DNA from: Vicinamibacteria bacterium
GTDB lineage: Bacteria; Acidobacteriota; Vicinamibacteria; Vicinamibacterales; UBA8438
Direction: 5' to 3'
Assembly (NCBI GenBank): GCA_022821235.1
Contig: JAJEEA010000151.1
Location: 1-34,576 of the forward strand
Length of the DNA: 34,576 nucleotides
The notes beneath the pieces were generated by a model. It had not been told where the DNA came from. It made no database searches and was given only the letters and a program-made list of their open reading frames with translations. The translations under genes and the position numbers were made by a program. Of this stretch, positions 2,004 to 9,009 are shown piece after piece (within the stretch, counting starts at the first letter, position 1; each line of letters starts with the position of its first letter).

Positions 2004-3384
2004 TCACGCGGGGCGGGCAAGCCGACCGGCGCCGCCGGCCGCCCGTCGAATGCGGCGGGCTACCTGCTCCACGCACGCGAGGGTTTCCGGGAGCGAGCCT
2101 GACAAGTCGACAGACACGACTTCCAGGCGCTTGCCGACGTGCCGCACCACGTGCGTGCTCGGTGGGGACTTGCCGGCGTAGATCAGCAGCCCGCCGGGCA
2201 GATCGAACGCGGTGGCGTACGCGAGCAACTGGTAGAGGTCGGGGTTGGATATACGGTCGTCGCGCTTGTACTTCACGTCGCCCACGAAGGTGCATTTGCC
2301 GTGGGGCCACCACGACAGGTCGGGTTCGAGCCGAATCCGTTCCGCTTCGTCGAGCGTGGCCCCGCCGCCGGAACGCAGCGTCCGGTCGTCGGCGCCGAGC
2401 GCCTCGCGCAACGCCCGCACGACGAACCGCTCGAACAGGAGGTTCATGTCCACCAGGAAGCCGGGGGCGCGTACGTCGTCGCCCCGGTCCGCCTCGAAGG
2501 CCCACCCCTGGAGGACGAGCCGGGCGAGGGCGACGACCCGGCGATAGTGGCGGTTCAGGCGGTCGAACGTCACCTTCGGCACCGCCGTGGGGCGGTACTC
2601 CTCATGCGTCACGTCCGCCAGCACCGCGGCCGTCCAGCGCAAGGCGTCCCGGTTCCGCCGGTGGCGGATGCGCATGCGCCCGAGCCGGACGACCGCCGCC
2701 TTCACCAGGCGATTCGCGGTGATGTCGGCCGTGTAGTCGTCGTGTCGCACCTCGACGGGCGGCACCAGGCCGAATCGCCGGCGGACCTGCGCGTCGAAGC
2801 GGATGCGGCCGCGCACCGCCGGCAGCGTCTCCTCCCGGGTACGGTAGCCGTGCAGCAGGTCCACGAAGTGGAAGCGCCGGCGCAGGGCGAGGTCGACCAG
2901 CGCGATCGACCGGTCGGCGGTGTTCATCGTGCCGATGAGATAGAGGTTCTTCGGCAGCGAGAAGGGCTCTTGCGAGTACGGCAACTGGATCCCGTGGTCA
3001 CGGTACTCCAGCAGGAAGTACAGCTCGCCGAACACCTTGGCGAGGCTGCCGCGGTTGATCTCGTCGATGACGAGGTAGTGTCTCTTGGGGGCCTCGCCAC
3101 TCGTCGCGGCTTCCCGGGCGTCGCTTCTGGCCGCCTCGGCGGCCTGCCGTAGCGGCCCGCGCACGAGCCGGAAGGCCGTCTGGCTGCCCTCCAGCGTCGG
3201 ACGAATCCCCTCGATGAAGTCCTCGTATGACGAAGTCTCGGCGGTCGCGGTAGAGGCGGGCGCGGTTCAGCACGTAGTCGTCCGCGCGATCGAGGTCGAG
3301 GTCGTCCCAGTGGGTCATCAGCCAGTACTTGTGGTCGCCGATGAAGAGATAGGTGTTGCGCCGGCTGAAGAAGCGGGCCTCCAC
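2004..3384 (-). pseudogene. Decayed McrB-McrC restriction locus (McrB Walker B/sensor region joined in-frame to the C-terminal half of McrC; N-terminal fragment in another frame)
   Basis: ORF 2004..3164 reads [28 protein letters not shown] and [26 protein letters not shown] (McrB), then directly [30 protein letters not shown] ... EPDLSWW...GDVKYK (McrC, PD-(D/E)XK). Upstream ORF 2998..3384 in another frame begins MEARFFSRRNTYLFIGDHKYWLM and breaks just before [16 protein letters not shown]. No GxxGxGK[ST] in any frame between. Confidence 0.75.
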
Positions 3385-5828: not shown

Positions 5829-6629
5829 ATGCGGACGGTGAACGGTTTCGAACAGGCTTTCGAGGACGTGGAGCGCGCCGCGGGCGCCGCGGTCGTGTCG
5901 GCGCGGGCACTGGTTTCCCTGGCCAAGAAGATGCAGAAGGCGGCCCGCGAGGGCAACGTCGCAGCCATCAAGCGGGTGCGGAGCGACTTCGACGCGGTCC
6001 TGCCCGAGGTGAGTCAGGCGGTCTCGAGCGCCGCCGACTCGTGGCCTCTGCCTGACGAGGACGAGCAGCGGTACCTCGAGGACGGCTACGCCGCGGAGCT
6101 GTGCGCCGTCGCCGAGGTGCTCGGGCTGAACGTCTACGAGCGGGACGGCAAGCTGATCTCGTACCCGTCCATCTTGCGCATCCTGCCCGGCGACCGGGCG
6201 GTGCGGGTGGACGGGAAGCGGGTCGCCGCCATCCGCCCGTCCCACCTGGCCGGCCTGCTGCTGAAGAACCAGAGCAGGCCGGCCCGATTCCGGTCGGACC
6301 GCTTCCTCGAGGCGATCTACACGGTCTATGCCGAGATCGTGCGCGAGGACGCCGCGGGCCGCGCGGCCGGCGACGGGCCCGTGGTGCCCCTGACCCGGAT
6401 CTACAAGCTCCTCACGTCGCTGCCGGGCGCGAGCCGCGAGTACGACCGGACGGACTTCGCCCGGGACCTCTTCATTCTCGAGGCCGAGGGCCCCCGCCGG
6501 ACGCGGAAGGGCGCCGCCGTCTCTTTCCCGGCCTCCACCGGCACGCGGCGGTCCGGCCTCTTCACGTTCGTGGGCCCGGACGGTCAGGAGGCGCGGTACT
6601 ACGGCATCAGCTTCACCGCGGACGGGTGA
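5829..6629 (+). CDS. Uncharacterised protein, first gene of BrxD-like operon (coiled-coil N-terminus)
   Basis: ATG preceded by gggaggga; 266 codons; contains LTRIYKLLTSLPGASREYDRTDFARDLFILEAEGPRRTRKG; stop overlaps next start (TGATG at 6627-6631). Confidence 0.75.
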   Translation: MRTVNGFEQAFEDVERAAGAAVVSARALVSLAKKMQKAAREGNVAAIKRVRSDFDAVLPEVSQAVSSAADSWPLPDEDEQRYLEDGYAAELCAVAEVLGLNVYERDGKLISYPSILRILPGDRAVRVDGKRVAAIRPSHLAGLLLKNQSRPARFRSDRFLEAIYTVYAEIVREDAAGRAAGDGPVVPLTRIYKLLTSLPGASREYDRTDFARDLFILEAEGPRRTRKGAAVSFPASTGTRRSGLFTFVGPDGQEARYYGISFTADG

Positions 6630-7762
6630 TGACGGACGCCATCCCCCTCGACGAGTGGTTGCGGCGGATCGACGACGAGTACCTGTCGGGGTTCGTCCGC
6701 GACGGGGGCGCGGCCGTCAAGTTCGCGGTGACCCCGGACGAGGCGCGGCCCGTGCTGCGCGACGCCCTGGAGCAGCGCTGCCGCGAGTCGGGCTACCTCT
6801 TCGTCGCCCTCGACGCGGCGGAGCTGCGGGCCCACATGCCGCAGGACGTCTTCTTCGGTCTGGCGCGCGGCATCGACTGGCGCGGGCTGGCGCGCCGCCG
6901 GGTGCTGCGGCTGGCCGCGGAGAGACGGTATCGCGTCGACGCCATCGACGCTGAGGGCGGCGGCGACGTGTTCGACGCCATCGCCGGCGCCAACGATCTC
7001 GAGCCGCGGACCGTGCTCATGCGTCTCCGGCCCGACATCGAGGCGCGTGTCTACAAGCACCCCGCGATGGCCCGCGACTTCCGGGCGGCCATGACGTTTC
7101 TGTGCGAGCAGACCGGAGATCGGTCGGACGGCAGCTACGACGGCCAGCCGGTGCTGGACTGGCTGACCGGAGAGGAGACGCGCCTGAGCCCGGTGCGGCC
7201 CTTTCTCATCCACACCGCCGTCAACCGCGCCACCGCCCGCTACTTCATCGAGTCGGCGCTGCACTGGGTGCGCGAGGCCGGCCTCGCGGGGACGGTGGTG
7301 CTGCTGGACAACCGCCGCGTCATGGTGGCGCGCAACCCCAGGGACGGTCTGCGGTACTACACCCGCGCCATGACCGTCGACCACTACGAGCTGCTGCGCG
7401 AGTTCATCGACGGCGTCGACCGGCTGGCCGGGGCCCTGCTCGTGGTGGCGACCGGCGACGGCTTCCTGGACGACGAGGCCGGCCGCGGCTCGCGCGGCTT
7501 CGGCATCTACGAGGCGCTGAAGACCCGGGTGATGAACGACGTGCGGGACCGGCGCCTGCTCAACCCGGTTGCCGCGTTGGTGCGGTTGTCGCCGGACGAC
7601 GCACGCCCGGACGGCCCCGAGGAGCGGGAACCGACGAACGGCGCAGAAGACCCCGGCGACGAACGGCGCGCGGGATCGCCGTCAGAGCCGGCCAGCGGCC
7701 TCGCCGGGGCGGCTGCGGCGGCGCGACGGGCGGCAAGATGGTTCGCGACGAACGGAAGCTGA
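6629..7762 (+). CDS. ATPase-like protein distantly resembling BREX ATP-binding (DUF2791) proteins, no recognisable Walker A
   Basis: YLSGFVRDGGAAVKFAVTPDEARPVLRDALEQRCRESGYLFVALDAAELRAHMPQDVFFGLARGIDWRGLARRRVL; translationally coupled to both neighbours. Confidence 0.6.
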   Translation: MTDAIPLDEWLRRIDDEYLSGFVRDGGAAVKFAVTPDEARPVLRDALEQRCRESGYLFVALDAAELRAHMPQDVFFGLARGIDWRGLARRRVLRLAAERRYRVDAIDAEGGGDVFDAIAGANDLEPRTVLMRLRPDIEARVYKHPAMARDFRAAMTFLCEQTGDRSDGSYDGQPVLDWLTGEETRLSPVRPFLIHTAVNRATARYFIESALHWVREAGLAGTVVLLDNRRVMVARNPRDGLRYYTRAMTVDHYELLREFIDGVDRLAGALLVVATGDGFLDDEAGRGSRGFGIYEALKTRVMNDVRDRRLLNPVAALVRLSPDDARPDGPEEREPTNGAEDPGDERRAGSPSEPASGLAGAAAAARRAARWFATNGS

Positions 7763-9009
7763 CGGCGCGCCGCGCCGTCGAGGCGTTGCGCAACGGCGTG
7801 CCCAACCGGGCGGCGGTGGAGATGCTGGGCTGCCGCCAGCCGAAGGCGGAGGCGGCGTTCGCCGAGCTGCTGGCCCGCGCCGGGGACGCGCAGGCCGGCG
7901 CGGGCCGCGCGCGGGGCGTGCTCGTGTCCGGCGACTTCGGCGCGGGCAAGTCGCACCTGCTGGTCCACCTGGAGCGCTTGGCCCTGGCGCAGGGCTTCGT
8001 GTGCAGCACGGTGGCCGTCAGCAAGGAGACGCCCCTCTACGACCTCGGCAAGGTGTTCAGCGCCGCCGTCGACAGCGCGCGGATGCCGGATCGCGGAGGA
8101 CGCCTGTTCGAAGAGCTGGGCGTCGCCGCCGACCGCGACTCGGCGTCCTTCACCGCGTTCGTGGAGTGGGTCGACGCCGCGACGGCGAACGGGGCGCTGC
8201 ACGATATCTTCCCGGCCAGCGTGGCGGTCTACGAGGGCGCCAGGGACCCCGAGCTCAGCGCCCGGATCGAGTCGTTCTGGGCGGGCGACCGGATACGGGT
8301 GTCCGAGATCAAGCGGGGACTGCGGGTGCTCGGCCAGCGGCGCGCCTTCCGGGCGCCGAGGGTCGCCGAGCTGCCCCCGCAGCGTCTGCGTTTCGCGGTC
8401 GAGCTGATGCGGGGCGCCGGCTACAAGGGCTGGGTGGTCCTGCTGGACGAGCTGGAGCTCGTCGGCTCCTACTCGCTCCTGCAGCGCGGTCGATCCTACG
8501 CCGAGCTGGCCGGATGGCTGGGGCAGGCCGCCGGCGACGCCGGTGCGGGCCTGATCGCGGTCGGGACGGTGACGGGCGACTTCGCAACGGCCATCATCGG
8601 TCCCGACGGCAAGAACGACCGCGAGGGCGCGGGCCGGCGGCTGGCGAACAGCCGCTACGCGGACCGCGTGCGCGGGGCGGAGGCGGGCATGCGTCTGCTC
8701 GAACGCAAGTGCATCCGCCTGTCGGCGCCCACCGCCGACGACGTGCGTGACACCCTGGAGACGCTACGGCAGATCTACGGCGAAGCCTACGGATGGGAGG
8801 CCCCGCGGCTGGAGACCGGCGCCCGCGGCGTGGGCATCCAGGCTCGGATGCGCTACAAGGTCAGGGCCGCCATCAACGCCTGGGATCTGCTGCGGATCTA
8901 CCCCGACTCGCGCCCCGAGACGGTGGGCGGCGAGTTCCGTCATGCCTACCGCGAGGACACCGACCTCGAAGGGGAATCCGGCGACGACGCGGAGCACGTC
9001 GAAGAGTAG
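7738..9009 (+). CDS. BREX-type P-loop ATP-binding protein (BrxD / DUF2791 family-like)
   Basis: ARRAVEALRNGVPNRAAVEMLGC; Walker A VSGDFGAGKSHLLVHLERLAL; VSKETPLYDLGKVF; Walker B VVLLDELELVGSYSLLQRGRSYAELAGWL. Confidence 0.8.
   Translation: MVRDERKLTARRAVEALRNGVPNRAAVEMLGCRQPKAEAAFAELLARAGDAQAGAGRARGVLVSGDFGAGKSHLLVHLERLALAQGFVCSTVAVSKETPLYDLGKVFSAAVDSARMPDRGGRLFEELGVAADRDSASFTAFVEWVDAATANGALHDIFPASVAVYEGARDPELSARIESFWAGDRIRVSEIKRGLRVLGQRRAFRAPRVAELPPQRLRFAVELMRGAGYKGWVVLLDELELVGSYSLLQRGRSYAELAGWLGQAAGDAGAGLIAVGTVTGDFATAIIGPDGKNDREGAGRRLANSRYADRVRGAEAGMRLLERKCIRLSAPTADDVRDTLETLRQIYGEAYGWEAPRLETGARGVGIQARMRYKVRAAINAWDLLRIYPDSRPETVGGEFRHAYREDTDLEGESGDDAEHVEE

Follow-up and report, generated by a model that had tools for sequence, protein, structure and literature searches.

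BrxD is classified as an ORC-Cdc6 AAA+ ATPase, and its gene forms a tight dyad with that of the helicase BrxHI, and it has been proposed to act as the loader of this helicase (PMC12839542). Shango is an operon encoding an ATPase, a helicase and a TerB protein, and blocks phages experimentally (PMC10250203). The locus described here lies on a contig of 34,576 nucleotides from a Vicinamibacteria bacterium (GenBank assembly GCA_022821235.1, contig JAJEEA010000151.1), the whole of which is referred to below as the window. It comprises three genes, encoding proteins here termed P1, P2 and P3, and is filed as a variant of the BrxD-type ATPase and helicase theme which falls outside both BREX and Shango. 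Searches of the open literature, with few subscription journals included, for PF10923, BrxD-like proteins, Shango, SNF2 and AAA+ defence, and YprA systems found no description of this set.

All three genes are on the forward strand and are open without internal stops: gene 1 (5829..6629) encodes 266 aa, gene 2 (6629..7762) 377 aa, with homologues of around 320 aa, and gene 3 (7738..9009) 423 aa. The TGA of gene 1 (6627–6629) shares one base with the ATG of gene 2 (6629–6631), while the ATG of gene 3 at 7738 lies within gene 2, whose stop ends at 7762. A gene caller based on codon usage, with triplet genes as its training set, chose the same three genes in the window; together with the translations and overlaps, this confirms the three co-directional, overlapping genes described in an earlier sequence-only reading of this DNA. 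The flanks also agree with that reading, which had named a VapBC module and a Tat-leader protein gene: upstream are genes for a PIN-domain toxin and an RHH-like antitoxin (the RHH match is weak), and downstream is a gene whose product shows a Tat leader and an HD domain, both of them weak.

Two other features of the window are recorded here. An ORF on the reverse strand (2004–3164) encodes the end of an McrB-like AAA domain fused to an McrC domain, with the start of McrB absent, and is read as a truncated or fused McrBC. Positions 1–1202 encode the C-terminal portion of a radical SAM relative of the tetraether lipid synthase Tes, with a score of 141.8 bits that falls below the cut-off; in another genome, G002 (locus L009), a homologue of 698 aa sits just upstream of the triplet.

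P3 matches the Pfam family PF10923 (BrxC_BrxD) at 68.7 bits, above the curated cut-off of 22.2 bits, and fails the BrxD equivalog NF033438 (50.8 bits; cut-off 350). Its Walker A motif, GDFGAGKSH, is encoded at 7930..7956 (+) and its Walker B motif, VVLLDE, at 8434..8451 (+). Among 35 P3 homologues, Walker B is present in all and Walker A is canonical in 33, the other two having a variant first residue. With the PADLOC models, the window proteins gave matches to BrxD and SngB that were weak only. Judged from these matches and motifs, P3 is a BrxD-type (ORC/Cdc6-like) AAA+ ATPase with its motifs intact, which bears out the earlier assignment of the third gene to a BrxD/DUF2791-like ATPase with a P-loop and Walker B.

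P2 also passes the PF10923 cut-off, at 33.6 bits, and fails the BrxD equivalog (26.2 bits; cut-off 350). When the profiles of P2 and P3 were compared, P2 aligned to the AAA+ core of P3 (E ~1e-4, probability 56%). Walker A is found in none of 44 P2 sequences; the aspartate of Walker B is kept in 43 of the 44 and the glutamate which follows it in none. In the window, the degenerate P-loop region at 6704..6748 (+) reads GGAAVKFAVTPDEAR and aligns to MKFVIGRPGAGKTHLL of a deep triplet, L154. This deep locus provides the strongest evidence that P2 is a decayed ATPase, because its P2 homologue has an intact P-loop: MKFVIGRPGAGKTHLL stands where the P2 of the window has VKFAVTPDEARPVL, and GRPGAGKTH is kept at the Walker A place. 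In the AlphaFold model of P2 (pLDDT 88) the elements follow one another as in an AAA+ core, and a fold search with the model returned weak P-loop/AAA+ matches (VirB4, DAP3, RdrA and Cdc6), none of them below E 0.04. Most simply, P2 derives from a once-active ATPase and is a P-loop-less AAA+ relative of BrxD, a putative pseudo-ATPase. The second gene had been taken for a distant relative with a degenerate nucleotide site, and the Pfam score and the missing Walker A motif agree with this.

P1 has no significant match among Pfam families, the BrxD equivalog or the PADLOC models, and no match to a TerB domain; on sequence comparison it is a new family. Its AlphaFold model, built from 44 sequences, is confident (pLDDT 92.7); it starts with a long N-terminal helical hairpin, continues with a small beta element and ends in a winged-helix-like C-terminal half (residues 156–263, encoded at 6294..6617 (+)). 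The first gene had been described as uncharacterised, with one block, LTRIYKLL...DLFIL, singled out as a possible winged helix; in the model this block lies in helices of the winged-helix-like arrangement. Against PDB and viral structures the model found no fold below E 0.05, so the winged-helix reading is drawn from the order of secondary structure elements. On the basis of the model, P1 is proposed to be a DNA-binding or sensing adaptor.

A scan for P3 across 85,462 species, each represented by one genome, yielded 69 loci, distributed among Acidobacteriota, Chloroflexota, Pseudomonadota, Actinomycetota, Bacillota and others. P2 lies before P3 in every one of the 69; P1 lies before P2 in 67, and the contigs of the remaining two begin inside P2. 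As a check less biased by the P3 query, the P1 profile alone was run against 294 genomes from another class. Matches were obtained in 18, one of which was the centre genome already in the P3 scan, and the other 17 all have P1, P2 and P3 in order (a few are the same contigs as P3-scan loci). P2 and P3 likewise adjoin all seven P1 matches among relatives of the window's genome, and the pairwise divergences of the three proteins correlate (r 0.88–0.91). Since the order is kept in every locus that reaches far enough and divergence is correlated, the triplet is a real, conserved unit rather than a chance arrangement; the earlier reading had set this association as a point on which it could be refuted, and the association holds. 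At one deep triplet locus (L157, 1–4052), inspection by eye suggested a protein of 1350 aa encoded upstream on the opposite strand and the start of a NERD-like protein further downstream.

The distribution is patchy and, on the P3 tree, phyla are mixed. Besides the 18 of 294 genomes in one class, there were true P2 matches in 4 of 299 genomes of one actinobacterial order, the triplet was present in 6 of 60 genomes in a search of relatives (the window's own included), and an even sample of the window's phylum gave 1 of 297, again the window's own; as only a few candidates were scored per genome in some of these surveys, individual cases may have been overlooked. Weak P2 matches in three genomes (G479, G622 and G624) were rejected as P2, being probably Shango-like ATPases; an SngC-like helicase lies near the two that were checked. 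Searches for P1 in plasmid records, phage records and viral contigs, and for P3 in plasmids, were negative, and an Rfam search returned nothing informative.

Directly 3′ of P3 there is a helicase gene in 43 of 65 assessable loci, 37 of the SNF2 type and 6 of an XPB-like SF2 type. In 21 loci there is no adjacent helicase, one (L013) has a 131-aa C-terminal helicase fragment only, and four further loci end at a contig edge and are not assessable. Since a helicase gene follows directly in most genomes, the usual unit is one of four genes, and the window carries a helicase-less form. The description of the triplet as ‘stand-alone’ is not borne out. The XPB-like form belongs to a single actinobacterial clade, and helicase state (SNF2, XPB-like or none) changes at least nine times on the P3 tree, which indicates that the partner has repeatedly been lost or exchanged.

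Of PDB entries, Sulfolobus Snf2/Rad54 is the best match to the SNF2 core of the fourth-gene proteins, and of PADLOC models ZorD and DpdE; in this respect the core resembles the helicases of the same family in Zorya (ZorD), Dpd (DpdE) and DISARM (DrmD). It differs from these in being preceded by an N-terminal domain of approximately 190 aa, which has no Pfam match and no PDB relative and is a gene of its own in seven loci (L044, L045, L048, L050, L052, L053 and L067); moreover, no nuclease domain was recognised in the fourth-gene helicases scanned. An SNF2 gene in the G002 locus L009 was rejected as the cognate helicase, being DpdE/DrmD-like and part of a separate cluster.

The position of the triplet just upstream of a helicase gene in most genomes suggests that it is probably an undescribed anti-phage system. 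We infer that P1, P2 and P3 would form a hetero-oligomeric AAA+ complex in which P3 hydrolyses ATP and serves as the motor of the assembly, P2 acts as a dedicated subunit without a nucleotide site and so makes the assembly asymmetric, and the winged-helix-like half of P1 contacts DNA or a partner. This complex may recognise some state of invading DNA and then, by analogy with the proposed role of BrxD on BrxHI, load or activate a DNA translocase, the SNF2 or XPB-like protein encoded by the adjacent fourth gene in most genomes; the loaded translocase would block or dismantle phage DNA. The best explanation we can offer, held at about even weight, is that the triplet is a hetero-AAA+ module for sensing foreign DNA and for loading or activating a translocase, with a presumed anti-phage role, and so varies the theme of BrxD–BrxHI and SngB–SngC. 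The fuller proposal—an undescribed type of defence in which a BrxD-type ATPase, a derived pseudo-ATPase and a DNA-binding adaptor of unmatched fold make up a hetero-AAA+ helicase loader with an exchangeable translocase, whether SNF2, XPB-like or supplied in trans—is held tentatively and at slightly less than even weight. Counted against the loader model are the lack of an adjacent helicase in roughly one third of the loci that could be assessed, among them the window and the loci closest to it, the absence of a recognised nuclease domain in the helicases scanned, of P1 from plasmid, phage and viral-contig records and of P3 from plasmids, and of a fold match for P1.

In the window, as in two further loci (L008 and L011), there is no helicase or recognisable remnant downstream of the triplet, and a search of the window's whole genome (552 contigs, 92% complete) found no cognate helicase; outside the triplet that genome has one moderate SNF2 match, a DpdE-like gene truncated at the edge of its contig. 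As there is no adjacent fourth gene, the complex in this genome would either use a helicase in trans or belong to an incomplete system still under purifying selection. The triplet of the window could instead be what is left of a four-gene defence system that is disappearing after loss of its helicase: a close homologue (L010) has a full helicase, and the 131-aa C-terminal fragment lies in the related locus L013/G017. We nevertheless consider this unlikely, because several related genomes keep all three genes intact, with a within-genus dN/dS of 0.13–0.35 (by simple counting, in which dS may be underestimated for a high-GC genome), indicating that the helicase-less triplet is still under constraint, and because helicase-less triplets recur in other clades, one of them deep.

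The loader proposal also has to be set against the known systems which the triplet resembles. It shares with the BrxD–BrxHI pair of type 2 BREX the Pfam family PF10923 and a single-domain BrxD-type ATPase adjoining the gene of an SF2 helicase. It differs in that P3 falls far short of the BrxD equivalog, P1 and the pseudo-ATPase P2 are added, and the helicase is SNF2 or XPB-like where BrxHI is Ski2-like. No BREX core genes had been noticed nearby, and this stands: by gene content there are none in the window, and single-query searches of 90 triplet-related loci at E 1e-8 found nothing for PglZ type 3, PglZ type 1B, BrxL, BrxA-like or BrxB-like proteins, BrxC and PglX being outside the query set. 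With no PglZ, BrxL, BrxA or BrxB in its loci, the triplet is not BREX, and a fragment of BREX type 2 was rejected on this ground and on the failed equivalog cut-off. Nor does it occur mainly beside the pglX/pglZ or TerB genes of a named system, as far as the query set, without pglX, extends. Elsewhere in the window's genome, contig C390 (L164, 5566–11209) carries BrxL (803 bits), a 485-aa fragment of PglZ type 1B and, by sequence resemblance only, BrxB- and BrxA-like genes, and so resembles a type 1 BREX locus without BrxC and PglX. Contig C101 (L163, 7448–9532) carries a BREX type 3 PglZ (741 bits) by a small toxin-antitoxin-like pair near the contig end.

Shango (SngA, TerB; SngB, ATPase; SngC, helicase) likewise combines a BrxD-type ATPase with a helicase in a compact operon. 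In contrast, the triplet lacks a TerB protein, its helicases are SNF2 or XPB-like, and P3 scores only 24.6 bits against the SngB model, for which a true SngB reaches 569 bits. Three actinobacterial loci (L064, L065 and L075), the only ones with SngA beside the triplet, have next to it a complete Shango, a separate and divergent operon with its own SngB; the two systems are therefore separate, and a Shango variant was rejected.

These three triplets have no adjacent helicase of their own, which is consistent with an accessory module acting in trans with the helicases of other systems, for instance Shango or a Druantia-like system. Consistent with this too are the exchangeable helicase partner and the genome G002, of the same genus as the window's, where DruE-, DpdE/DrmD- and DrmMI-like genes stand in a row directly after the triplet (L103/L104). 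We regard it as unlikely, and slightly less likely than loss of the helicase: Shango has its own ATPase, most triplet loci have their own helicase, and the three loci beside Shango group closely on the tree, so that their association may be a single event. The row of genes in G002 resembles an ARMADA- or DISARM-like cluster. Other loci have a DUF1156 methyltransferase and a PLD-helicase (L053) or an McrBC relative (L071) as neighbours. A comparison of near and far neighbours with PADLOC, without per-gene quantification, found defence genes in both sets, and no general island enrichment is therefore claimed. The defence-island context proposed by the sequence-only reading thus stands for some relatives, namely those beside Shango and the same-genus genome with Druantia/DISARM/Dpd-like genes, and not as a general enrichment. 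As a whole, the interpretation given in that reading is partly borne out.

ORC/Cdc6-like ATPases serve replication and transposition too, and the P3 profile weakly matches TnsC as well as BrxC in the PDB; a non-defence DNA-handling AAA+ complex, whether a transposition helper of the TnsC/MuB type or a chromosome or replication factor, is nonetheless the least likely of these alternatives, since the triplet is too rare and patchy for a housekeeping function, the gene clusters around it include no conserved transposase or integrase, and the plasmid and phage searches were negative.

BrxD-type ATPases adjoin helicases in BREX-2 and in Shango, and the triplet represents a third setting, in which such an ATPase has a fixed partner, the putative pseudo-ATPase, together with a proposed adaptor and a helicase that is either SNF2 or XPB-like. 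The loader idea becomes directly testable with four proteins, and the unnamed family P1 gains a clear genomic context. In sponge metagenomes PF10923 has been counted as evidence of Pgl/BREX (PMC5099237); the existence of the triplet suggests that counts made in this way may overcount these systems.
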